This document shows positions 24,714 to 58,726 of a stretch of DNA of 64,000 bases, one piece after another (the first letter of the stretch is position 1; each line of letters starts with the position of its first letter). Below the pieces are notes generated by a model, which made no database searches, was not told where the DNA came from, and saw only the letters and a list, made by a program, of their open reading frames with translations. The DNA is from Halobaculum sp. CBA1158 (GTDB taxonomy: Archaea > Halobacteriota > Halobacteria > Halobacteriales > Haloferacaceae), in assembly GCF_021431925.1 (NCBI RefSeq), contig NZ_CP090371.1, positions 1,178,001 to 1,242,000 on the forward strand, written 5' to 3'. The position numbers and the translations under genes are program-made.

Positions 24714-25973
24714 GTGTCTCCGACCGTCACGAAGACGTTGCAGGCGACGTTCGCGCCACCCACCGCGCACAAGCAGTCGAAACTCACCGACCTGCTCGAA
24801 ACCTACCGTGACGGTCTGCAAGAGGCGTTCGACGCCGGGGCGAGTACCATGTCGGCGGTGAGTGACATCGTGACGCCCTACGACCTGCCGTATCAAGCTA
24901 AAGCCGCGCTCTGCAACTACGTCCCGAAACTCCGCAAGACGTACAACGCCAAGGAGTTGGACGACGGCCACCCGATACGGCTCACGAATCAGGCTGCAAA
25001 GTTCGACCACTCCGAAGAACGCGAGTACGAGTTCACGTGGTGGGTTCCGCGTCCCGGTCGGGGAACGAACTTCTGGATACCGCTCCGCATCAATCCCGAA
25101 CAGGAAGACCTCTGGCACGACCTCGTATCGGAGGACGCGAAGGCGGGGGAGATACGGCTTCAACAGCACCGGCAGAACTGGGTACTGCACGTCACCGTCG
25201 AGTACCCGGTTGAAGAACCAGCGACGGACGGTGACGCCACGCACATCGGCTTAGACATCGGAGAAACCGCTCTCATCACGGGCTGTGCCCTCAAGGACGG
25301 TTCTCCGACTGACCCGTTCGTGTGTAGCGGAAGTAGAGCGAAGCATCTCCGCAAAGAGATGCACACGACCCTGAAACGACTCCAAGAGCGTGACGCATCC
25401 GAGTGGCGGATTGAAGACCGCTTCTCGCACTACCAGAACGCGCTCACCGACATCGTGGAGAAAGCGTCTCGGCAGGCCGTCGAGTACGCCACACAGTTTG
25501 AGAATCCGGTGTTGGTGATGGAGGACTTGACGTACATCCGTGAGCGTCTCGACTACGGGAAGTACATGAATCGTCGGCTTCACTCGTGGGCGTTCGCCCG
25601 ACTGCAAGGGCGCATCGAGGACAAGGCGACGGAAGCAGGCATCCCAGTCGAGTACGTGAATCCGGCGTACACCTCGAAGACGTGCCACTCGTGCCACCGT
25701 ATCGGTCGGCGGGACTCTCAAGCCGAGTTCCGGTGTCCGAACGACGACTGCCACGTTTCGACGTTTCAGGCCGACATCAACGCTTCCGCGAATATCGCAC
25801 GACGGATTGACCCGTGGGGAGAGAGCGTCCCGTTTGACAAGGCGGAACGCGATGACTCGCCACGGGATGGGAGCGGTTGTGACACCGCCACGACTCACCG
25901 TGAGAAGAGCGTACCAGCGCAGATGACGCTCACGGCCTACGAAGAGTCGAAACCCTCTGCCAGCGACGACTGA
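24714..25973 (+). CDS. tnpB: TnpB, RNA-guided endonuclease of the IS605 element
   Basis: A 419-residue RuvC-type nuclease. The triad is complete: Asp181 in HIGLDIGETALITG, Glu270 in VLVMEDLTYIRERL, Asp354 in STFQADINASANIA. A zinc finger is formed by Cys324, Cys327, Cys341 and Cys346. The GTG start at 24,714 leaves one base after the tnpA stop. TnpB proteins of this family use an omega-RNA from the 3' end of their gene and the right end, and cut DNA next to a short motif to promote element retention. Confidence 0.92.
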   Translation: MSPTVTKTLQATFAPPTAHKQSKLTDLLETYRDGLQEAFDAGASTMSAVSDIVTPYDLPYQAKAALCNYVPKLRKTYNAKELDDGHPIRLTNQAAKFDHSEEREYEFTWWVPRPGRGTNFWIPLRINPEQEDLWHDLVSEDAKAGEIRLQQHRQNWVLHVTVEYPVEEPATDGDATHIGLDIGETALITGCALKDGSPTDPFVCSGSRAKHLRKEMHTTLKRLQERDASEWRIEDRFSHYQNALTDIVEKASRQAVEYATQFENPVLVMEDLTYIRERLDYGKYMNRRLHSWAFARLQGRIEDKATEAGIPVEYVNPAYTSKTCHSCHRIGRRDSQAEFRCPNDDCHVSTFQADINASANIARRIDPWGESVPFDKAERDDSPRDGSGCDTATTHREKSVPAQMTLTAYEESKPSASDD

Positions 25974-28082: not shown

Positions 28083-28817
28083 ATGCAAGCAGTCGTTCTC
28101 GCCGCAGGCGAGGGGACACGGCTTCGACCGTTAACCGAGGAGAAACCAAAGGGGATGGTCGAGGTCGACGGTGACCCGATTCTCACGCATTGTTTCGATA
28201 CCCTCGTTGACCTCGGCGCGAGTGAGCTCATCGTCGTTGTTGGATATATGAAAGAGACGATCATCCAGCATTACGGCGACGAGTACGAGGGCGTTCCCAT
28301 CACGTACGCGCACCAGCGCGAACAGAAGGGACTCGCCCACGCGCTCCTTACTGTCGAAGATCACATTGACGACGACTTCATGCTCATTCTCGGTGACAAC
28401 GTCTTCGAGGCGAACCTTCAGGACGTGGTCCGCCGGCAGGCCGAGGACCGCGCGGATGCGGCGTTCCTCGTTGAAGAGGTCCCAATGGAGGAAGCATCAC
28501 GCTACGGCGTCTGTGACACCAACAAGTACGGCGAGATCGTCGACGTGATCGAGAAGCCGGATAATCCGCCCTCGAATCTCGTGATGACCGGCTTCTACAC
28601 CTTCACACCGGCGATATTTCACGCCTGCCACCTCGTGCAGCCGAGCGACCGCGGCGAGTACGAGATCAGCGACGCGGTCGGGTTGCTCTTAGAGAGTGGT
28701 CGGACTATCGATGCCATCCCGCTTGATGGCTGGCGGATGGACATCGGTTATCCCGAAGATCGCGACGAGGCGGAGCGACGCCTGCGTGAGGGAGCCGAGA
28801 CGAAAGCGAATGCGTGA
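28083..28817 (+). CDS. aglF: Sugar-1-phosphate nucleotidyltransferase (AglF-like), intact copy
   Basis: A 244-residue nucleotidyltransferase of the GlmU/RmlA fold, predicted to make UDP-glucose from UTP and glucose-1-phosphate, as AglF does in Haloferax. It has the nucleotide signature MQAVVLAAGEGTRLRPLTEE with KPKGMVEVDGDPIL, the metal-binding FMLILGDNVFEANLQDV, EKPDNPPSNLVMTGFYTFTP, and GWRMDIGYPEDRDEAERRL at the end. It is divergent from the UDP-glucose dehydrogenase gene, which would use its product. Confidence 0.87.
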   Translation: MQAVVLAAGEGTRLRPLTEEKPKGMVEVDGDPILTHCFDTLVDLGASELIVVVGYMKETIIQHYGDEYEGVPITYAHQREQKGLAHALLTVEDHIDDDFMLILGDNVFEANLQDVVRRQAEDRADAAFLVEEVPMEEASRYGVCDTNKYGEIVDVIEKPDNPPSNLVMTGFYTFTPAIFHACHLVQPSDRGEYEISDAVGLLLESGRTIDAIPLDGWRMDIGYPEDRDEAERRLREGAETKANA

Positions 28818-30469: not shown

Positions 30470-31203
30470 ATGAAAGCTGTCGTTTTAGCGGCTGGTGAGG
30501 GGACACGACTGCGTCCACTCACGGAAGATAAACCCAAAGGGATGGTTGAACTCAAGGGGAAACCAATTCTCACGCACTATTTCGAACAGCTCGCCGAGTT
30601 AGGTGCAGACGAACTCGTCGTCGTGGTGGGATACCTCAAGCAGAATATCATCGAACACTATGGCGATGAGTTCGAGGGCATCCCGATTACGTATGCACCC
30701 CAACGTGAATAGAAAGGGTTGGCTCACGCGCTATTGACTGTCGAGGAATACATCGACGACGACTTCATGCTGATGCTCGGCGACAACATCTTTCAGGCGA
30801 AACTGGAGGACGTCGTTCGGCGGCAGCAAGAAGATCGGACCGATGCCGCGTTCCTTATCGAGGAAGTAGACTGGGAGGACGCGAGTCGGTATGGAGTGTG
30901 TGATACGAACAAGTACGGAGAGATTACCGATGTCGTGGAAAAGCCCGATGATCCGCCTTCTAATTTGGTGATGACGGATTCTACACGTTCAGTCCGGCTA
31001 TCTTCCACGCATGTCATCTCGTGCAACCATCGAATCGTGGCGAATACGAGATCAGCGAGGCTATCGATTTATTGATTCAGAGCGGACGAATCATCGATGC
31101 TATCGGGCTCGAGGGATGGAGGATTGACGTTGGGTATCCCGAAGACCGGGACGAGGCCGAGGAAAGACTGCAAAATTCAGAACCGATACCCGCAGAGAAT
31201 TGA
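30470..31203 (+). pseudogene. Broken AglF-like nucleotidyltransferase (nonsense and frameshift), second copy
   Basis: This is the paralogue of the gene at 28,083. It begins MKAVVLAAGEGTRLRPLTED normally. At 30,710-30,712 a TAG replaces the CAG found in the intact copy (APQRE-stop-KGLAHALLTV). The frame goes on until about 30,978, where one base is missing relative to the intact copy (GTGATGACGGATTC against GTGATGACCGGCTTC), then continues one frame over as NRGEYEISEAIDLLIQSGRI to 31,203. The rest is well preserved, so inactivation looks recent, or a sequencing error affects two sites. Confidence 0.88.
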
Positions 31204-31362
31204 ATGAGGTACTTGAACGAATAGACCGAAACTACCTTACTGTAACCATCCATTTAGTACTCTTTGACAAATAATCAAGTATTGCTTGATGATTATTCGA
31301 CTACACTGATCCCGATGAGCGAAACAATGTTCTTTACTTGGTTTCGATCTCAGTAGGCTTTG

Positions 31363-32010
31363 ATGCCAACTAGGCGAAGGCGTATACTCCAAATTATCCC
31401 ACTATTCAGCTTCGTCTTTGTTATCGGTATTCACTGGTTGTATTCGCCAGCGGCTATGTTTGAAGGGCTTGACGAACGTGGATGGCTGCTTATTGCTGTT
31501 GGCGTGACTATCTTTTATCTGATTCGTCCCTTCGTGCTCTGGCCACTGAGTCTCGCATCTCTGTTTCTGGGGTACCTCGTTGGATTCCCAAGCGGCGTGC
31601 CGCTCGTCTTGACTGGAACCCTGGTTACGTGTTTCCTGCCGTTCCTTCTCGCAGGCTACTTCCAGGATGTGAATGGCTACACCTCACGGATCTCCGCGAC
31701 TGGTGAGTCAATTGTGACCACCACGGGCGAACTTCGGGGAATGGTTGCTGCTCGACTGTCACCCGCGCCCGCAGATAGTGTCTCTATTGGCGCTGGCTTG
31801 GCCGGTGTCTCCATTTGGAACTTTGCGCTCGGGACGCTCATCGGTGAACTACCCTGGGCTATCTTCTACGTCACTTTTGGACAATCACTCCGGAGCTTCT
31901 CATCGGACTCCGTTCAAACGGTTAATATTGAGTTTCTGCTAGTTGTCAGTAGCGTTGCGGTGCTTCTGTTAGCACGACCTATCTATCTATTTATTTTCCA
32001 AACTGAATAG
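31363..32010 (+). CDS. TVP38/DedA-like (VTT domain) membrane protein
   Basis: A 215-residue integral membrane protein. Helices occur around IIPLFSFVFVIGIHWLY, GWLLIAVGVTIFYLIRPFVL, LASLFLGYLVGFPSGVPLVL and VEFLLVVSSVAVLLLA. The central SxFLGYxxGxxxGxPLxLxG block, and IWNFALGTLIGELPWAIFYV before the last helix, are typical of VTT/SNARE-associated domains. Such proteins are implicated in lipid scrambling or undecaprenyl-phosphate recycling, which would fit a lipid-linked glycan locus. The ATG at 31,363 is preferred over the TTG three bases before it. Confidence 0.8.
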   Translation: MPTRRRRILQIIPLFSFVFVIGIHWLYSPAAMFEGLDERGWLLIAVGVTIFYLIRPFVLWPLSLASLFLGYLVGFPSGVPLVLTGTLVTCFLPFLLAGYFQDVNGYTSRISATGESIVTTTGELRGMVAARLSPAPADSVSIGAGLAGVSIWNFALGTLIGELPWAIFYVTFGQSLRSFSSDSVQTVNIEFLLVVSSVAVLLLARPIYLFIFQTE

Positions 32011-32024
32011 CGAACCACCGTGAA

Positions 32025-33005
32025 TCAGTTGCTTGGGTTTGTGACCTGAGCCTGGTCTCTCACAAACCGGTAGACAACAAACACACAGGTTCCTAGGATC
32101 GCTCCGTACCAGAGCGTGCCAACCCGGATAATTACCGTCGCACTCACCGCAATAGTCTGGGTGTATCCTAAGATGACGAGCATCCCGACCATACTGGCTT
32201 CCGCGGCCGCTAATCCCCCCGGGAGGAGGCTGGCCGCACCCACGACCGACCCCAACCCGAACACGAACAATGCGGCCAGGAGGGTCGCTTCTGAACTGAA
32301 TCCACTCAGCACCACCCACAGCGCAACTCCCTCTAAGCCCCACGCCACGAGGCTAATGAGAAACGCGATACTGAGCGGTCGCACCTGGAACAGCGTGTAC
32401 GTATTCTCATAGAATTTCTCTAACTCAGTAGCATACGATCCAACAATTGGAAGCGTCTCCAACCATCTCAAAACACGTAGACAAAAATTCCGCCACTGAA
32501 GCAAACTGATACCAAAGAGGAACAGGAGAATCACGCCGATCAACACGACGGATGACCGCTGATAGATAAGTATTCCCAGAAACGCGAACACCGACAGCGC
32601 GATCAAATCAGTCACCCGCTCAGCACCGACCACGGACGCTGTCCGACTAACTGGTACATCGCGGAGGTCACGGAGGAACCATGCCTTCCAGACTTCACCT
32701 GCTTTCCCAGGAGTCACGACCATCATCAAACCGCTGAAAAACACAATCAGACTCGTCTTGAGGGGGATATCAATATCCAAGTGCCGGAGATAGTACTCCC
32801 ACTTGAGAAACCGCACACCGTAGCTAATCGTAGCGAGGAGGAACACGACGCCAATCCGCCAGAGATCAACCGCAAGGAGTGCCGAAACGACTTGCGAGGC
32901 ATCACCGACGACGAACATCCCAAAGAACACAGCAACTGTCAGGAGTGCTGTAACCCAGAGCCCGTGTTGGCGGATCGCTCGTTGGACTGTCGAGAGGACG
33001 CGCAT
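32025..33005 (-). CDS. Lysylphosphatidylglycerol synthase TM region / UPF0104 family membrane protein
   Basis: A 326-residue polytopic protein with about eight helices. It matches the LPG_synthase_TM family: LWRIGVVFLLATISYGVRFL near the start, FFSGLMMVVTPGKAGEVWKA (the conserved T-P-G-x-x-G-E motif), VSRTASVVGAERVTDLIALS and AASLLPGGLAAAEASMVGML. Proteins of this fold flip or move polyprenyl-linked substrates or aminoacylate lipids; no catalytic synthase domain is attached here. It is the last gene of a tightly overlapping operon (UbiA, PHP, this). Confidence 0.88.
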   Translation of the reverse strand: MRVLSTVQRAIRQHGLWVTALLTVAVFFGMFVVGDASQVVSALLAVDLWRIGVVFLLATISYGVRFLKWEYYLRHLDIDIPLKTSLIVFFSGLMMVVTPGKAGEVWKAWFLRDLRDVPVSRTASVVGAERVTDLIALSVFAFLGILIYQRSSVVLIGVILLFLFGISLLQWRNFCLRVLRWLETLPIVGSYATELEKFYENTYTLFQVRPLSIAFLISLVAWGLEGVALWVVLSGFSSEATLLAALFVFGLGSVVGAASLLPGGLAAAEASMVGMLVILGYTQTIAVSATVIIRVGTLWYGAILGTCVFVVYRFVRDQAQVTNPSN

Positions 33006-33643
33006 CAGAGATTCACCATTCTGAGTGCGTCATTCAGTTTCGTCGCAGTATGGCCCGAGAGATAGCCCCCTCGTCCTGCTGTCTGGGTTGCTGTAGATTC
33101 GATAGCCTCACGCAGTGGCGGCTCACAAACGGTCGTAGACCGTCCCACCTCCATTGGAAAGTGGGCATCGCTTCCGCCCGTGATCGCTAAGTCGTGCTGA
33201 GTAGCGAACTCTCGGGCGTGACGGTTGAATCGAGAGAGTAGACAACGTGAATTTTGCACTTCAACGGCGTCAACGCGTGAGGCTATTGCGTCGAGATCTG
33301 TGTCGTAATACTCTCGAAATCTGTCAAACGGATGTGAGAGGATCGCAATCCCATCTTGCTCGTGGACGTGTTCAATTACGGTTACTGGGTCGGTTTGCGG
33401 TGGTTCATCATTAACGTACAACGCGAGAAGATGGCCCTGTGTCGTCGTTACTTCTACCCCAGGAATCACGTTTAGGTCAGCAGGCGCGAGATCGGCGACC
33501 TCATCGTATCCCGCTAACGTATCGTGGTTTGTGATAGCAATCCCCTCTAATCCCGCATCAATGGCCGCATCGACAACGTCAGCTGGAGAGGCTCGTGAGC
33601 ACGGCGATGCGTCGGTATGCACTTGGAGGTCGTACTGCTTCAC
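33005..33643 (-). CDS. PHP-domain phosphoesterase
   Basis: A 212-residue metal-dependent phosphoesterase. Metal-ligand motifs in order: DLQVHTDASPCS (residue 5-16), GIAITNHDTLAG, VIPGVEVTTTQGH, AILSHPFDRF, VEVQNSR and ITGGSDAHFPMEVG. The usual HxH at the first motif reads QxH here, so one ligand is altered. The family hydrolyses phosphomonoesters including nucleotide and sugar phosphates. Overlaps with UbiA upstream and LPG-TM downstream are 4 and 1 nt, so the substrate is probably a product of the UbiA step (inference). Confidence 0.85.
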   Translation of the reverse strand: MKQYDLQVHTDASPCSRASPADVVDAAIDAGLEGIAITNHDTLAGYDEVADLAPADLNVIPGVEVTTTQGHLLALYVNDEPPQTDPVTVIEHVHEQDGIAILSHPFDRFREYYDTDLDAIASRVDAVEVQNSRCLLSRFNRHAREFATQHDLAITGGSDAHFPMEVGRSTTVCEPPLREAIESTATQTAGRGGYLSGHTATKLNDALRMVNL

Positions 33644-34551
33644 TGAATCACCTCAACAGCTATTTCTGGTACGTTGTAGAGGACAGCAATAGCGACGATA
33701 CCCCAGAGGATAAGATTCACTACTGAGGGTCGATCCGTGAGGAGATATTCGGGTTGACCTGCGATGTTCGTTGTATGGACGAGATGATGATAGCGAAACA
33801 CACCAAAGAACGCGAACGGGAGCGTTGCCATCATCGTCGGATCCGTTCGTGAGAACGTATAGAGTGAGTACGACATCAGCAGGGTGGCCATCACCATCAC
33901 AAGGAGTTGATCAATATTGCTCTCTGAATACTCGCCTAAGACACCCCGTGTTTCCTGTGGGTTGGCGGCTACCTCCAGTTCGTTGCGACGCTTTCCAAAC
34001 GCGAGTACCAACGCAAGGAGGAACGTACTCACGATCAACCACGGACTCAAGAACACGTCAATAGCGATGACTCCCGCGATAGCGCGGAGAACGAACCCGA
34101 TGGCGACGATAAGCACATCGACAAAGACGAATTGCTTCAGTACGAGCGAATACAGGGCGTTCTGTGCGAGATAGGCCAGTAGAATTGCGAGAAAGAGTGG
34201 ACCGAGGCTGTAAGCTGCTCCGAGCCCAATACAAGCTAAGATGAGACCGAAGACCGTGGCAATTGGGACGGACACCTGTCCGCTTGCAATCGGACGATTC
34301 TGTTTTTCCGGATGATTGCTGTCTTCTTCAAGATCGCTAATATCGTTGAAAACGTATGTCGCGCTGGCGACGGTTGTAAACGCCACCATCCCGATCAAGA
34401 GGCTCAGCCAGGCATCCCAATTTAGAAGATTTTGGGAAAAGACGATTCCAAGGAGCATTACGCCCTGCTTGTACCATTGCCACGGGCGAATCTCTCGAAT
34501 CAGTCCAGTGAGTGTGTTTACTGGACTAATGGTCTGCGATGACCTGGCCAT
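33640..34551 (-). CDS. UbiA-family prenyltransferase, decaprenyl-phosphate phosphoribosyltransferase-like
   Basis: A 303-residue membrane enzyme with about nine helices. The first Asp-rich motif is NDISDLEEDSNHPEKQNRPI and the second active-site region is LALVLAFGKRRNELEVAANP. The RPxxWxKQ start (IREIRPWQWYKQGVMLLGIV) and the FGKRRxEL motif are what I know from the DPPR-synthase branch, which transfers phosphoribose to a polyprenyl phosphate. Ubiquinone- or heme-type UbiA enzymes lack the FGKRR signature. Substrate is inferred. It opens the UbiA-PHP-LPG-TM operon. Confidence 0.85.
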   Translation of the reverse strand: MARSSQTISPVNTLTGLIREIRPWQWYKQGVMLLGIVFSQNLLNWDAWLSLLIGMVAFTTVASATYVFNDISDLEEDSNHPEKQNRPIASGQVSVPIATVFGLILACIGLGAAYSLGPLFLAILLAYLAQNALYSLVLKQFVFVDVLIVAIGFVLRAIAGVIAIDVFLSPWLIVSTFLLALVLAFGKRRNELEVAANPQETRGVLGEYSESNIDQLLVMVMATLLMSYSLYTFSRTDPTMMATLPFAFFGVFRYHHLVHTTNIAGQPEYLLTDRPSVVNLILWGIVAIAVLYNVPEIAVEVIQ

Positions 34552-34624
34552 TCAGTATCTAATCGAGCGACCAACAGGAAATAAAGATACTGCTAACCTG
34601 TGAAATTGCAGCGCACGGAGCTAC

Positions 34625-35041
34625 TCACTTTGGCGGAGATAGGCGTCTCTGGTTCGTATATCCGAGTAGAACCGAAAGGACGTGCGTATAGATGGTAATG
34701 GCTGTGACGAAGGCTAAATACTCGCTAACAAACCAGATAAATACGATGAAAACGCCGCCAATAACAAGGTGGCTAAACAACCGTTGATCCCGCGATATAT
34801 CACCCCGCTCGAATATCGATGCTTGATCGACGAATACCCGCGACGGACTTCGAAAACAACGGATGAGGTTAGACCAATCACCGCGATTGATCCGTCCAAT
34901 CACGAAATGATCCAAGTCGATTCCCACTCCTAGAACGATCACAAATGCCAATATGTAGATTGGTTGGTGAAACTCTGGCGCAGTAACGGCGAGGTGGATA
35001 CCTACTACAGCAGAAATGATCTCATGTCTCCGCGAGTACAT
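34625..35041 (-). CDS. Small membrane-bound metal-dependent hydrolase-like protein (YdjM/DUF457-like)
   Basis: A 138-residue membrane protein. Helices lie at YILAFVIVLGVGIDLDHFVI, SHLVIGGVFIVFIWFVSEYL and AFVTAITIYTHVLSVLL. Motifs GIDLDHFV, RLFSHLVIGG and YTHVLS carry the Asp/His residues seen in the YdjM/DUF457 family of membrane-bound hydrolases. It is shorter than most members. It lies 74 nt upstream of the UbiA operon on the same strand and could belong to it. Confidence 0.65.
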   Translation of the reverse strand: MYSRRHEIISAVVGIHLAVTAPEFHQPIYILAFVIVLGVGIDLDHFVIGRINRGDWSNLIRCFRSPSRVFVDQASIFERGDISRDQRLFSHLVIGGVFIVFIWFVSEYLAFVTAITIYTHVLSVLLGYTNQRRLSPPK

Positions 35042-35190
35042 CGTACGGTCATATTGCTCATACTATACTCGTAGTTTTACCATTCTTCTGGTCTCCGCAG
35101 GATTGAGTTAGATCTGTCCGATTACTCAGCTGCTGAATTGATCAGTAGGAACTGAGTCAGCTCTCGGGGCTCACCAGTATGGCGAAATAG

Positions 35191-35200
35191 GTAATATAAA
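35191..35200 (+). promoter_or_regulatory. TATA box of the epimerase gene
   Basis: GTAATATAAA lies about 31 nt before the ATG at 35,227, on the intergenic side facing the minus-strand hydrolase gene. A short leader of 3-5 nt is predicted. Confidence 0.5.
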
Positions 35201-35226
35201 GACAGTACGTTAACTTCCCCAGAATA

Positions 35227-36318
35227 ATGAGTACGACTGAGCACATGGACTCCGAGGATCGCCAGTATGATTCTGTCGTTGTCACTGGCGGAACTGGCTT
35301 TCTGGGACTCCACACGTGCCAGTACTTTGCTGAGCAGGGATGGGACGTAACTGCGCTCGACCTCAAACCGTTCAGCGAGGAAGACGATACAGAGGACCTG
35401 GAATACATAGAGGGAGACGTACGTAACGAGGAGAGCGTGTCTGAGGCAATCGAGGAAGCCGACGCGGATGTAATCGTCCACAGTGCGGCAGCACTCCCTC
35501 TGTGGGACGATGACGAGATCTGGGAGGTGACAGTCGAGGGGACTCGGTCGGTGTTGTGGGCCGCGAAAGAACACGACGTTGAACGAGTGGTCTATATTTC
35601 GTCCACAGCCGTCTATGGGACTCACGATACCCATCCAATCACCGAGGAATCTCCGTTAGACGGTGTCGGTCCATACGGAGACGCGAAAATTGAAGCCGAA
35701 AATGTGTGTCGAGACTTCCGTCGGATGGGGATGTGTGTCCCTATTATTCGCCCAAAAACATTCATCGGACCACAGCGGCTTGGCGTGTTTCAGGTCTTGT
35801 TCGACTGGATTGAGGATGGGGCAAACATACCGATGGTCGGGTGGGGGAACAACAAGTATCAATTACTCCACGTGCACGATCTCGTTCGAGCAATCAAGAT
35901 GATGTTCACCTTGGACAAGAATGAGGTGAATGACGCGTTCAACGTAGGTGCGACTGAATACAGGACGATGAAAGAAGACTTCCAAGCCTCAATTGATGAG
36001 GCGGGAACAGGAAAGCGAGTTGTCGGAACACCAGCGACACTAACCCGATTTACACTCCGAGTGTTGAACAAGCTCAATCTGTCACCGCTCTATCCATGGG
36101 TGTATGAAACCGCTCACGAGGACTCGTACGTCTCTGTTGAGAAGTTATGCGATCTCGGATGGGAAGCAAAATACTCGAATCAAGAGGCGTTGGTTGACAC
36201 GTATCGGTGGTATTTAAAGAACTATGAAGAAAGTGAAGGTTCAACTGGGAAAGACCATCGCGTTGCGTGGGATCAAGGTGCACTTCAAATTGTAAAGTGG
36301 TTATTTATGAAATTCTGA
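35227..36318 (+). CDS. Extended SDR NAD(P)-dependent sugar epimerase/dehydratase
   Basis: A 363-residue nucleotide- or lipid-linked-sugar oxidoreductase. The NAD motif is VVVTGGTGFLGLHTCQYFAE; the catalytic set is Ser/Thr in VYISSTAVYG and Tyr-x-x-x-Lys in GPYGDAKIEAENV. The C-terminal extension (about residues 270-363) is longer than in simple epimerases and Trp/Lys rich. It opens an AT-rich segment, 4 nt before the GT-C-like gene. Possible roles: 4-epimerase, or the second step of a lipid-linked pentose epimerisation. Confidence 0.85.
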   Translation: MSTTEHMDSEDRQYDSVVVTGGTGFLGLHTCQYFAEQGWDVTALDLKPFSEEDDTEDLEYIEGDVRNEESVSEAIEEADADVIVHSAAALPLWDDDEIWEVTVEGTRSVLWAAKEHDVERVVYISSTAVYGTHDTHPITEESPLDGVGPYGDAKIEAENVCRDFRRMGMCVPIIRPKTFIGPQRLGVFQVLFDWIEDGANIPMVGWGNNKYQLLHVHDLVRAIKMMFTLDKNEVNDAFNVGATEYRTMKEDFQASIDEAGTGKRVVGTPATLTRFTLRVLNKLNLSPLYPWVYETAHEDSYVSVEKLCDLGWEAKYSNQEALVDTYRWYLKNYEESEGSTGKDHRVAWDQGALQIVKWLFMKF

Positions 36319-36322
36319 AATT

Positions 36323-37591
36323 ATGGACGAAAACACCACTATTTTAGGTTCAATCTGGAACCGGGGCAAGATATATTACAAAATGCCCAAAATAACATTA
36401 TTTGCAACTTCATTTGTCTGGAGTCTCATAGCAATTGGAGTACGTGGCAATTTCTATAATGTATCAACTTGGGAAAATGGTATGATTGCAAGTAATATAA
36501 TCCGGGGTCTGGGTTTTAGTGGTACATATCTAGTCGGCCCCCCTGTGGAGCCCACCTCAGTAATGGCACCCTTCTACCCTTACTTTTTAGCTACTGTATA
36601 TACAGTTTTCGGGCTCACACCACTCGCTTTTATAACTATCCAGGTTATTCAAGCAATTATTCAGGCGTTTTCAGTTGTTTTATTATTTCTAATTGGGCGA
36701 CAAATTTTCAATATGCAAGTGGGTCTGTTCGCTGGAGTAGGTCTCGCTCTGTACCCAGATTATGCTTATGGAGTGACGGTAATACACCAATTGACCTTTT
36801 CGACATTCATAACATTATTGCTAATATATAGCTTAGTACAGCTAGAGGATGGATATTCAATCAAGAATATAGTCGTCTCTGGCACTATTTTGGGAGTAGC
36901 AACCCTTATAATTCCTGCTGTGCTATATTTTGCGCCTATAATCCCGCTTTGGTTGATAGGACAGACCTATCTTAAACGGTGGAGTTTTAGTGAGGCGTTA
37001 AAGATGAGCTGTTTAATCACAATAGTTCCCCTATTAATCGTCGCTCCCTGGACCATTCGTAACTATATTGTACATGATCAGTTTGTTCTTGTTAAACAAG
37101 TGGGGTGGAATTTTTGGCGAGGGAACGTCCCACCGGCAATACACACGGGTGTTCCAAATGAACTGAGTGACGCGCCATCAATTGTCCAAAAAAAGGTAGA
37201 ACAAATGCCAGAAGCAGAAGCTAATAAATACCTTCTCAACAGGGCGCTTGAATATATAATCTATCATCCAAGGAATTTCTTAATCCATTTCTTCAAAAAT
37301 ATATGGTATTTCTGGTGGTTCCCTCCTATGGAACAAAAACCCGCACAATCCAACATTATTCGTAAATTGTTTTATGTTCCAGTATTATCAATGGGAGTTA
37401 TCGGTATTATTAAATCCAGACGAAGATGGAAAAAGTATACGCTATTCTATGGGATTTTCTTTTCCTTTTCTATTGGTTATAGCATATTCTTCATTCAACC
37501 CAGATATAGAACGCCAACGATACAGCCATTTCTAATCCTTTTTGCGGCATTCTTCGCTTATAGAATAATCCGGAAATTCAAAATGGTTTAA
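36323..37591 (+). CDS. GT-C/GT39-like membrane glycosyltransferase
   Basis: A 422-residue integral membrane protein with about ten helices. Early in the protein lies GFSGTYLVGPPVEPTSVMAP, then FYPYFLATVYTVFGLTPLAF, the ArnT/PMT-like P-x-Y-P pattern after the first lumenal loop. The mid segment APWTIRNYIVHDQFVLVKQV and the closing FIQPRYRTPTIQPFLILFAA are GT39-family landmarks. It would transfer a sugar from a polyprenyl phosphate on the outer face of the membrane. The gene is strikingly AT-rich against the flanks, suggesting transfer. It probably forms an operon with the SDR gene. Confidence 0.75.
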   Translation: MDENTTILGSIWNRGKIYYKMPKITLFATSFVWSLIAIGVRGNFYNVSTWENGMIASNIIRGLGFSGTYLVGPPVEPTSVMAPFYPYFLATVYTVFGLTPLAFITIQVIQAIIQAFSVVLLFLIGRQIFNMQVGLFAGVGLALYPDYAYGVTVIHQLTFSTFITLLLIYSLVQLEDGYSIKNIVVSGTILGVATLIIPAVLYFAPIIPLWLIGQTYLKRWSFSEALKMSCLITIVPLLIVAPWTIRNYIVHDQFVLVKQVGWNFWRGNVPPAIHTGVPNELSDAPSIVQKKVEQMPEAEANKYLLNRALEYIIYHPRNFLIHFFKNIWYFWWFPPMEQKPAQSNIIRKLFYVPVLSMGVIGIIKSRRRWKKYTLFYGIFFSFSIGYSIFFIQPRYRTPTIQPFLILFAAFFAYRIIRKFKMV

Positions 37592-37879: not shown

Positions 37880-38394
37880 ATGACTCAAGATCTCGAACCC
37901 ATCGCACCACAGAAAGCAGTAGACCTCTACCTCGCACAACGGGAAGACGACGCTTCTGAGAGGACCGTACAGGCTCACAGATACCGTCTCAAGCACTTCA
38001 TCCGATGGTGCGAGCAGGAGACATCACCAACCTCAACGACTTCACCGGTCACAGGCTGTACGAGTACCGGCTCTGGCGGAAGGACGACGGCGACCTCAAT
38101 CCCTGTCTCACTCCGAACCCAACTCTCGACTCTCCTCGCCTTCGTGCGATTCTGTGAGAACATCGACACCGTCGAGTCAGGCACGCACGAGGAAATCCTA
38201 CCCCCGACCCTTGATGCCAACGACGACGTGAATGACGAGATGCTGGACGGAGAGCGGGCAGAGATGATTCGGGAGTACCTCAAATGGTTCGAGTATGCCT
38301 CTAGAAAGCACGTCCTCTTCGAGATGTTCTGCGCGAGGTACTCCGCCTGTGGCGAGGGAGCGACGAGGGGCGACCGTCTGCATTGGAGGTAGAT
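37880..38394 (+). pseudogene. Tyrosine recombinase (XerC-like integrase), N-terminal part with frameshifts
   Basis: The start MTQDLEPIAPQKAVDLYLAQ and ASERTVQAHRYRLKHFIRWC is the SAM-like core-binding domain of haloarchaeal integrases. From about 38,008 homology moves to another frame (GDITNLNDFTGHRLYEYRLW), then returns (SLRTQLSTLLAFVRFCENID) and runs to YASRKHVLFEMF. The catalytic R-H-R-Y domain is lost. It ends in sequence unrelated to integrases. Confidence 0.7.
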
Positions 38395-47388: not shown

Positions 47389-48852
47389 CTATTCAACGAT
47401 AAGCTTACGCAGATCCCTCCAGGAGATAGTATTCGTAATTAGAAGTCCGCCCGCATAGAGTAAACAAAATAACACCACGAAACCACCATAAATCGGTAAC
47501 GTGGTCACGTTATCACTAATGAGACTAAGAAAGAGTGCAACTACTCCAGCGATTACTATAACGCGACCGATATTTTGAACAGGAAGAGACAGATTCAATT
47601 CAGTTTTTACACGACGAAAGTGAAAAATATCGGATATTATCGATGCAGTGCCTGAACCAACAGCTGCACCGAGCAACCCGATCCGGGGGATCAATAGTAG
47701 GTTAAGAGCTATATTGACTAGAAATGCAACTAGAAATGTTGTTAAAATATACCGAGAGTAACCCATAGTTTTGAGTGTATTCGTAGCAGGACCAAGAACT
47801 GCACTAACAAAATAGGTAGCAACTATTGTCACTAACACCCATCGGCCTGCCCTAAACTCAGCCCCAAAGAGTAATGTCAGCGACTGCTCGGGAAATGTAA
47901 TTAGATAGGCGGTAGGTGCTACCGCAAGGATACTAAGCCAACGGGAGGCTTTTCTGTACCGATTACTAATAACATCGTGTTTATTCTGGGCCAACAGAGA
48001 TCCGAAGTTAGGGTAAAGGGTATTTGCGACAGCTCCAATGAATAGAGAAATAGAGGTGCCAAGTAAATATGCTGATTGATAGATGCCGACATCTACGCTC
48101 GTCAAGAAAAATCCGACGAATATCGTATCCGTCCAGTTTAAAAAAAAACCAATAAAACCAGATAAAAATAATGGTGACGAAAATGTTAATAATTCTCTGG
48201 TGTTTGTACTAATCTCTTTTATTGATTCCCCCTTAAGTAATAGTGTTGTGAGGCTGAGACCGAGAATAGCAGTAAGCCACAGCACTACTACATACCAAGT
48301 GACAACCAGTTGAATTCCACCACCTGCAACGATAATAATGGCCGCTGTTGTGAGTTGACCGATCTTGGGCACGAGGCGGCGAATAGTTGTTTGGAGGGCA
48401 GCCTGCTCGTAACTGAGACAGATAGCACCTGTTAATGCGATAATCGATTTCGCTGGCATACCCAGCACAAAGACTCTCAAGAGTGGTGTCAGAGCCTTCG
48501 TATCAAAGAGTGTGGTCGCTAATAGTGGAGCCAGCGTCCAGATAACGGCTATCAAGACTATATTTGTAATGACGACTATCCCCACACTGACAAGCACGAC
48601 CCCAGCAATCTTGTCCGGTTGATCATTTGACCTGAAGCGACTGACGTAGGTGACAATCCCATCTGGGAGCCCGAGTAAAGTAATCGAGGTTCCAACGCTC
48701 ACGGTCATTAGCGCAAGAGAAAACAGGCCAAACACCGATGGACCGAGTTTATTGGCGATCAGGACTCGGAAGAGGAACGCACTTGCGTCGGCGATAGCGG
48801 CACCGATGAAAAGATACGACGCATTCTTAAGTATGCGTTTGAGATCGCTCAT
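47389..48852 (-). CDS. Oligosaccharide flippase family protein (Wzx/RfbX-type)
   Basis: A 487-residue protein with about 14 membrane helices of the MATE/MOP superfamily. The start ILKNASYLFIGAAIADASAF, then LIANKLGPSVFGLFSLALMT is the polysaccharide-transporter signature (R-x-L-G-xx-xFGxxxL). It should flip the lipid-linked glycan across the membrane, like AglR in Haloferax. It sits between the GT2 gene and the FkbM gene, all on the minus strand. Confidence 0.88.
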   Translation of the reverse strand: MSDLKRILKNASYLFIGAAIADASAFLFRVLIANKLGPSVFGLFSLALMTVSVGTSITLLGLPDGIVTYVSRFRSNDQPDKIAGVVLVSVGIVVITNIVLIAVIWTLAPLLATTLFDTKALTPLLRVFVLGMPAKSIIALTGAICLSYEQAALQTTIRRLVPKIGQLTTAAIIIVAGGGIQLVVTWYVVVLWLTAILGLSLTTLLLKGESIKEISTNTRELLTFSSPLFLSGFIGFFLNWTDTIFVGFFLTSVDVGIYQSAYLLGTSISLFIGAVANTLYPNFGSLLAQNKHDVISNRYRKASRWLSILAVAPTAYLITFPEQSLTLLFGAEFRAGRWVLVTIVATYFVSAVLGPATNTLKTMGYSRYILTTFLVAFLVNIALNLLLIPRIGLLGAAVGSGTASIISDIFHFRRVKTELNLSLPVQNIGRVIVIAGVVALFLSLISDNVTTLPIYGGFVVLFCLLYAGGLLITNTISWRDLRKLIVE

Positions 48853-57052: not shown

Positions 57053-58516
57053 TTAATCGTCACCGAACATCTGCCGCATCATCGGATGCATCTCCATCAG
57101 CTGCTCTTCTGCGATCTCCTCGTACAGCTTGTAGGTAATAGACACCGTCAGCAGCAGCCCCGTGCCCGACACGCCCCCGAGCGTCCCCAGCATGTTCGCA
57201 AGCACCGCAAGCAGGCCGACGAGCGCGCCACCGATGACGGTCACTTGCGGGATGTACCGCTCCATTACCTTCTCGATGACCTGCGGGTTCTTCCGGAAGC
57301 CGGGGATCTGCATCCCGGAGTTTTGTATCTGCTGAGCGGTCGACTCCGGCCCCATGCCGGTCGTCTCCACCCAGAACACCGCGAAGATCGCGCCGCCGAT
57401 GATCATGAACGTGAGGTCGACCAGAACGCGGAGGACGATCTGCCAGGGCTCGGCGGCGACGGTGAACGCCCCCGAGAACCACATCCAGTCCTGACGCGAC
57501 TGGATCGGCGCGAGGTAGTAGAACAGCCCGCTCACGGGCTGGCCCTGCGAGTAGACGCCGACGATCGCGGGGAGGCTCACGTAGTTGTTGAGGATCTGCC
57601 CGAGGAACTGGATGTTCGCCTGCAGCGCGCGAACGAGGATCATCGGCAGGACGGACGCGTAGATGAGCTTCACGGGGAAGCGGCCGCGAGCGCCCTTCAC
57701 CCGCGCGTGACTCAGCGGGATCTCAACGCGGACCGACTCGGTGTAGACGACGACCGCGAAGATCAGGACGGTCGTGAATAACGCGAGGATGTTCCCCGGA
57801 TCGAACAGCAGCGACTGGATGAACGGGTCAAGCTGGACGCTGCCGGTGATGATGCCGTACCACGCGGGGAAGAAGCCGGTGACGCCCGTGCCGAGCGCGG
57901 GGATGGCGAACAGCCCGGCGACGAGCTGCTGGCTCACGCCCGCGATGATGAACAGGCCGATCCCGGAGCCGACGCCCCACTTGGAGATGACCTCGTCCAT
58001 CAGCAGGATGAGGACGCCGCCGACGAAGATCTGCGCGAACAGCAGCGTCCGCATGCCGCCCTCGCCGATCCCCAGTTGCGCGGTGAGCTGCGGGTCGATC
58101 GGGAGGTAGTTGCCCGCGAACACCATCGGCAGGCCGGTCAGACAGATCATCACGACCACCAGCAGCTTCTGGAGGCCCTGGTACAGCACCTGGTCGCGGG
58201 GGTCGTCCGTGTCCAAGCCGAGCAGGTCCGCGCCGCCGAGCAGTTGGAGGACGATCGACGCCGTGACGATCGGACCGATGCCGAGCTGTAGGATCGACCC
58301 CTGTGACCCGGCGAGGATCGACCGGAACCGGCCGTAGAAGTCGCCGCCGGCTCCGTCGGTCGCGAGGCCGAATATCGTGATGTTCGTGAGGAAGAAGTAC
58401 ATCACGAGGATGCCGGCCGTCCAGGCGAGCTTCCGCTTGAAGGGGACGTGCCCCTCCGGTCGCTCGACCGTGGGCATCCGCGTGAGTACGGGCTCCGCGG
58501 TCTCTTTCCAACCCAT
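57053..58516 (-). CDS. secY: Preprotein translocase subunit SecY
   Basis: The 487-residue core channel of the Sec translocon in the cytoplasmic membrane, with ten membrane helices. Recognisable segments: LAWTAGILVMYFFLTNITIF (TM1), ILQLGIGPIVTASIVLQLLG (TM2, after the plug), MDEVISKWGVGSGIGLFIIA, and the last cytoplasmic loops SGMQIPGFRKNPQVIEKVME. The start MGWKETAEPVLTRMPTVERP is typical of archaeal SecY; an upstream frame extension is not used. It is the last gene of the spc operon. Confidence 0.96.
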   Translation of the reverse strand: MGWKETAEPVLTRMPTVERPEGHVPFKRKLAWTAGILVMYFFLTNITIFGLATDGAGGDFYGRFRSILAGSQGSILQLGIGPIVTASIVLQLLGGADLLGLDTDDPRDQVLYQGLQKLLVVVMICLTGLPMVFAGNYLPIDPQLTAQLGIGEGGMRTLLFAQIFVGGVLILLMDEVISKWGVGSGIGLFIIAGVSQQLVAGLFAIPALGTGVTGFFPAWYGIITGSVQLDPFIQSLLFDPGNILALFTTVLIFAVVVYTESVRVEIPLSHARVKGARGRFPVKLIYASVLPMILVRALQANIQFLGQILNNYVSLPAIVGVYSQGQPVSGLFYYLAPIQSRQDWMWFSGAFTVAAEPWQIVLRVLVDLTFMIIGGAIFAVFWVETTGMGPESTAQQIQNSGMQIPGFRKNPQVIEKVMERYIPQVTVIGGALVGLLAVLANMLGTLGGVSGTGLLLTVSITYKLYEEIAEEQLMEMHPMMRQMFGDD

Positions 58517-58726
58517 GTTGCGTGCACGTGGTCGGTGGGCACACCTTAACGCTTCGATTGGGAACTCCGTCCGAGCCGTCTCGACACGCCGACAGCGACC
58601 CGATCGGCCGCACCGCAAGCGCGACTGCGACCGACGAGTCGCTCGCGTCGCTATCGGTGCGACGGTCCGAAGAAACGGAACGAAACGGAAACCGCGGCCG
58701 CGATCCGCCGTGACGTGGCGGCGACG

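Follow-up and report, generated by a model that had tools for sequence, protein, structure and literature searches.

A probable lipid-linked pentose donor-and-transfer module, present twice in the genome of the haloarchaeon Halobaculum sp. CBA1158

Among the closest described systems for lipid-linked pentofuranose donors are the three-component pentofuranose systems of Citrobacter youngae O1 and O2 (Kelly et al. 2024, PMC11127046), which combine a UbiA-type polyprenyl phosphoribose synthase (PPPRS) with a dedicated phosphatase in the form of a HAD domain, a MATE flippase and a GT-C glycosyltransferase of family GT136. C. youngae O2 has a single epimerase of the short-chain dehydrogenase/reductase (SDR) type with TGxxGxxG and YxxxK motifs, and Citrobacter ORF13 demonstrates that a lone SDR epimerase can set the pentose (PMC11127046). 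In the mycobacterial decaprenyl-phospho-arabinose (DPA) pathway the corresponding parts are Rv3806c, Rv3807c, the DprE1/DprE2 pair, Rv3789 and the Emb/Aft proteins. For archaea, flippases of the arCOG00899/MprF-like type have been predicted to act in glycosylation (Makarova et al. 2015, PMC5898192), while we found no account of a polyprenyl-phospho-pentose pathway in archaea among the papers searched, which left out most subscription journals. Here we analysed a window (the whole stretch of 64,000 nucleotides, positions 1,178,001 to 1,242,000 of contig NZ_CP090371.1) of Halobaculum sp. CBA1158, in which genes for a UbiA protein, a PHP-family phosphoesterase, an LPG-TM membrane protein, an extended SDR and a GT-C candidate lie together. 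We propose that they probably form a lipid-linked pentose donor-and-transfer module, present twice in the genome, with the activities of its members assigned from family, fold, co-occurrence and precedent.

The three central genes share the minus strand and overlap in the order UbiA (33640-34551, 303 amino acids), PHP (33005-33643, GTG start, 212 amino acids) and LPG-TM (32025-33005, 326 amino acids), with overlaps of 4 nt and 1 nt exactly as the original prediction had given them. The coordinates and Pfam matches likewise bear out its placing of a VTT/DedA-type membrane protein downstream (31360-32010, plus strand, 216 amino acids; PF09335, 59.9 bits), convergent to this run, and of the extended SDR (35227-36318, plus strand, 363 amino acids) and the GT-C candidate (36323-37591, plus strand, 422 amino acids) divergent from it. 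By simple hydropathy PHP and SDR have no membrane segments and the remaining module proteins are multipass. A scan of the module against PHROGs gave generic matches only, the best of which linked the SDR to a family of nucleotide-sugar epimerases.

Comparison with characterised enzymes strongly supports the assignment of UbiA (Pfam UbiA, 98.5 bits) as a phosphoribosyltransferase of the decaprenyl-phosphoryl-phosphoribose synthase (DPPRS) type, as had been predicted. It scored 233.3 bits with the NCBIfam model NF008977 (decaprenyl-phosphate phosphoribosyltransferase) against 61.2 bits for the best model outside the DPPRS/PPPRS type, and its closest solved structure is that of DPPRS Rv3806c (8j8j, E 5.1e-30), with the next UbiA structure at 1.8e-3. 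The residues of Rv3806c that bind phosphoribosyl pyrophosphate (PRPP), Mg and the lipid phosphate have been reported (PMC10994848), and with these roles as a guide we mapped the substrate residues in a 112-sequence alignment. Ten of the twelve are identical in UbiA, namely R22, K28, Y66, N69, D73, K83, R86, Y134, K139 and K187, corresponding in the same order to R22, K28, Y70, N73, D77, K87, R90, Y138, K143 and K191 of Rv3806c. The two that differ are N131 for Q135 and F153 for Y157, the latter position also being occupied by Phe in some mycobacteria; K208 was not conserved in this comparison. The set of ten is present in all 26 haloarchaeal and all 13 other archaeal sequences of the alignment and in none of the six other UbiA paralogs of the genome. 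The FGKRRNEL motif on which the prediction had drawn is found at residues 185-192. In a quick tree the haloarchaeal proteins formed a clade (support 100) beside other archaea and inside the DPPRS-type sequences, and the six paralogs grouped to one side of a branch, although their very long branches make the exact placement unsafe and the tree supportive only. Of the refuting outcomes named with the prediction, none that could be checked here was observed. Automatic annotation already gives haloarchaeal genes the name UbiA-DPPRS, so the label as such is no novelty.

A second, complete copy of the module was identified in the same genome at about G000:C1:1291394-1297828 (L011 6395-12829), sharing identities of 51% for VTT, 68% for LPG-TM, 70% for PHP, 80% for UbiA and 82% for SDR. 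Among 27 haloarchaeal loci an intact UbiA was present in 26, PHP in 27, LPG-TM in 26 and a linked SDR in 21, L137 being the single locus without LPG-TM among those with an intact UbiA. As the arrangement recurs at the second genome site and, L137 apart, at all the intact haloarchaeal UbiA loci we studied, it is not a product of chance, and the survey agrees with the predicted conserved linkage of UbiA, PHP and LPG-TM; in other archaea, too, UbiA is found with PHP and often with LPG-TM. We then considered co-occurrence across 195 genomes of the order, from 66 genera, with ortholog cut-offs of E<1e-70 for PHP, 1e-40 for LPG-TM and 1e-60 for SDR. UbiA was present in 22 genomes (in one as a fragment with stops) and PHP orthologs in the same 22, the next PHP match reaching only 3e-34. 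LPG-TM was found in 21 and SDR in 19 of these 22 genomes, and neither was found outside them; at the genus level SDR occurred in 7 of the 66 genera, all among the 9 with UbiA. Hypergeometric values for this co-occurrence are indicative only, since related genomes are not independent. The genome with the UbiA fragment (G168, L138:7513-9869) retains intact VTT, LPG-TM and PHP genes and appears to hold a decaying module.

The PHP protein (PF02811 with the PHP_C domain PF13263) gave an AlphaFold model with a pLDDT of 92.9, whose closest folds are PHP phosphoesterases (Z 18-21), including RNase AM, with 2yb1 just below. Seven ligand positions (H9, H40, E64, H71, H104, D159 and H161) are conserved in all haloarchaeal copies. 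R110, E128, N131 and R133 are invariant across all copies and may line a pocket particular to this subfamily. LPG-TM is of the LPG_synthase_TM/MprF-type flippase-domain family (PF03706, 138.9 bits) and matches the flippase-like model TIGR00374. The roles of both are illuminated by another archaeon, in which locus L171 has a HAD-GtrA fusion beside UbiA, followed by an SDR and a PMT_2 GT-C; neither PHP nor LPG-TM was seen near this UbiA. The L171 SDR is 51% identical to that of our module over the full alignment (53% in blastp). In bacterial systems, according to the literature, the phosphoribose phosphatase is a HAD protein and GtrA has been proposed as flippase (PMC11127046), and a Lactococcus plasmid carries UbiA, a HAD-IB phosphatase and GtrA in consecutive order. 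Since the fusion replaces both proteins beside the same SDR, and both co-occur with UbiA, PHP is likely the 5'-phosphatase of the phosphoribosyl lipid and LPG-TM likely the flippase of the lipid-linked pentose. The PHP assignment of the original prediction is thus supported as probable, and its choice of LPG-TM or VTT as flippase is narrowed to a probable LPG-TM.

Elsewhere among archaea of the phylum, UbiA is accompanied by PHP and often by LPG-TM, with identities of 29-40%. A DUF362 gene frequently accompanies them: DUF362-type genes lie beside UbiA/PHP/LPG-TM in L164, L166, L167, L169, L170, L173 and L051, loci of other archaea and of Thermotalea; the UbiA locus of Thermotalea has an LPG-TM at 34% identity. 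No UbiA relative was confirmed in viral contigs, and phage records yielded one unannotated match (33.7%). An arylsulfotransferase-like gene (L041:11701-13194) adjoins LPG-TM and recurs in eight haloarchaeal loci, and a sulfotransferase and an adenylyl-sulfate kinase are near the Natronococcus plasmid copy.

The SDR (PF01370 Epimerase, 151.1 bits; model pLDDT 80.1) is a GalE-type extended SDR, its fold matching extended SDRs that are mostly nucleotide-sugar epimerases and dehydratases (Z 30-33). Its TGxxGxxG and YxxxK residues (TGGTGFLG and YGDAK) are near-invariant across 30 homologs. In the cyanobacteria Oscillatoria and Planktothrix an SDR 34-38% identical to it adjoins UbiA. From its co-occurrence, fold and precedent we propose that the SDR would act as epimerase of the lipid-linked pentose. 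It resembles the lone epimerase found in bacterial pentofuranose systems, and a Citrobacter ORF13-type enzyme is a better model for it than one half of a DprE1/DprE2 pair.

The GT-C candidate, which adjoins the SDR, matches PMT_2 (PF13231) at 32.1 bits, above the cut-off of 26.1. The GT-C genes of the two module copies are unrelated over their length, and the hydrophobic genes following the SDR in 13 haloarchaeal loci fall into five groups without a blastp link at 1e-5. Several of these are PMT_2 or Mannosyl_trans4 proteins by Pfam, while two of the five groups (the L011 second copy; L131/L132) have no significant Pfam match and owe their GT-C status to hydropathy and position only. Co-occurrence, fold and precedent point to the GT-C, as predicted, as the probable user of the pentose donor, exchangeable between modules.

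Two further membrane genes appear to be accessories. VTT, which gave a weak UptA match (35.4 bits against a cut-off of 250), is present only in the closest modules among the haloarchaeal loci examined and is therefore better viewed as an accessory than as the alternative flippase; it may perhaps contribute to recycling of the polyprenyl-phosphate carrier. A small membrane protein of 138 amino acids (34625-35041, minus strand), upstream of UbiA, is likewise restricted to the closest modules, with a homolog in the second module (L011:9749-10084) that appears frame-broken. It had been labelled DUF457-like and a membrane hydrolase; we rejected DUF457/YdjM membrane hydrolase as a candidate, as the gene has no relevant Pfam match, DUF457/YdjM included, even at E<=1, and it is left without an assigned family.

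In the proposed pathway UbiA would move 5-phosphoribose from PRPP onto the archaeal polyprenyl (dolichyl) phosphate at the cytoplasmic face, and the soluble PHP would strip the 5'-phosphate to give polyprenyl-P-ribofuranose. The extended SDR would then, with no DprE1 partner, epimerise the lipid-borne ribose to xylose or a different pentofuranose, the MprF-like LPG-TM would flip the lipid-sugar, and the GT-C, exchangeable between modules, would pass the pentose to a glycan or glycoprotein outside the cell; VTT might, on weak indications, return the carrier. Every core step has bacterial precedent, the single SDR epimerase included (PMC11127046).

Certain observations weigh against this pathway. 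UbiA falls 0.7 bits short of the NF008977 cut-off (233.3 against 234), which its archaeal relatives in L167 (261.2 bits) and L171 (252.4 bits) exceed. Position 7 of PHP, usually a metal-ligand His, is Gln in 26 of the 27 haloarchaeal copies and His in other archaea. In the papers searched we found no archaeal glycan that carries a matching pentofuranose. The fold of the SDR is of the nucleotide-sugar epimerase type, so that a nucleoside diphosphate (NDP) sugar could be its substrate instead.

This last point leads to the alternative that the donor is unmodified polyprenyl-P-ribofuranose and that the role of the SDR is to provide or alter a nucleotide sugar used for the same glycan. Besides the fold, the SDR lies on a separate contig from the UbiA cluster in three genomes (G099, G111 and G121), G124 is without a close SDR ortholog, and a close SDR homolog beside UbiA is absent from the further archaeal loci that were checked, L161-L170, L172 and L173. 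The SDR ortholog however never occurs outside the UbiA genome set, it also adjoins UbiA in cyanobacteria and L171, and an SDR epimerase acting on the lipid has bacterial precedent (PMC11127046). We regard an unmodified donor as unlikely, while giving it some weight. Much less probable is a full DPA-type pathway, with the SDR as a DprE2-like reductase, DprE1 elsewhere in the genome and arabinofuranose as product. The first enzyme is of the same type, by its NCBIfam profile and 8j8j match, and a DprE1-like motif gene is near some bacterial UbiA loci in our scan, but the SDR is an extended GalE-type enzyme and none of the haloarchaeal modules showed a DprE1-motif gene in its vicinity. A profile search of the genome found no DprE1: the best of its five FAD_binding_4 proteins reached 59.7 bits against a cut-off of 500, over the FAD domain only, and all five fit GlcD, YdiJ or BagK-type models far better. 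As DprE1 was not found in the genome a DprE1/DprE2 pair is unlikely, and the role of DprE2 partner, or half of an epimerase pair as first predicted for the SDR, was rejected. That UbiA prenylates a small molecule (of quinone, haem or ether-lipid type) beside an unrelated PHP and LPG-TM draws on the general UbiA family match and is very hard to reconcile with the 61 against 233 bits, the PRPP and lipid-phosphate residues kept in UbiA and absent as a set from its paralogs, the strict co-occurrence of PHP and LPG-TM with it and, as support only given the long branches, the position of the paralogs in the tree.

The proposed lipid-linked pentose module resembles the C. youngae systems in its UbiA-type synthase, probable dedicated phosphatase and flippase and GT-C candidate, and resembles O2 in its proposed single SDR epimerase. 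It differs in its archaeal host and in having PHP where those systems have a HAD domain and an MprF-like LPG-TM flippase candidate where they have MATE; because of the different phosphatase and flippase families we do not file it as a three-component pentofuranose member, although it would work alike, and only UbiA itself is filed, as DPPRS/PPPRS type. Like the mycobacterial pathway it begins with a homolog of Rv3806c, which has the same residues for substrate binding, whereas DprE1 was not found, the SDR is extended rather than DprE2-like, and the phosphatase and flippase come from other families. Most likely the chemistry is like that of the tuberculosis arabinan pathway, with other proteins for dephosphorylation and flipping. 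LPG-TM is of the same general type as the arCOG00899/MprF-like flippases, but we propose for it a particular cargo, a lipid-linked pentose, whereas the main text of Makarova et al. (PMC5898192) makes no mention of UbiA, PHP or phosphoribosyl.

The module lies in a region of distinct composition (28001-56000 of the window), where the GC content falls to 44-58% from about 60-74% on the left side and 67-69% on the right. In gene content this region looks like a glycosylation island, encoding GT1/GT2 enzymes together with FkbM methyltransferases, a Wzx-like flippase, a sulfatase-like protein and SDRs; a MatE/Polysacc_synt protein (47389-48852) is inside the island and outside the module. An intact AglF (28083-28817) is followed by a second AglF-like nucleotidyltransferase (30470-31075) that has an in-frame stop after 80 amino acids and looks decayed. 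Just past the module, 37880-38392 holds a fragment like the N-terminal SAM-like domain of tyrosine recombinases (weak, 19.2 bits, below the cut-off), and a TnpB/Cas12f-like protein (24714-25973, PF07282) suggests an IS200/IS605-type element. SecY (57053-58618) flanks the island, and on a Haloarcula amylolytica contig a SecY-like gene (L177:9533-10996, recognised by eye only) is likewise found upstream of the module, the two being separated by a tyrosine recombinase.

Related modules are carried on Natronococcus, Haloterrigena and Halostagnicola plasmids, and the entire UbiA/PHP/LPG-TM/SDR set is absent from the same-genus genome G158. In Halanaeroarchaeum sulfurireducens the annotations, gene lengths and order of HLASA_2007-2013, within 'prophage 2', match the module, as compared by published description only (PMC4866403). 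No Baseplate_J was found in the genome of the window, which gives no sign here of such a tailed-provirus setting. We consider it a tentative and rather doubtful possibility that this is a mobile lipid-linked-pentose module on megaplasmids, its GT-C swapped to alter the surface glycan, and the archaeal equivalent of the seroconversion cassettes of bacteria.

If the proposed module is correct, lipid-linked pentofuranose donors, known from bacteria, would extend to archaea, where proteins of unrelated families would carry out dephosphorylation and flipping. The module would offer a functional assignment for the PHP and LPG-TM subfamilies found only with UbiA in the 195 genomes, and it predicts furanose pentoses in the surface glycans of haloarchaea and other archaea.

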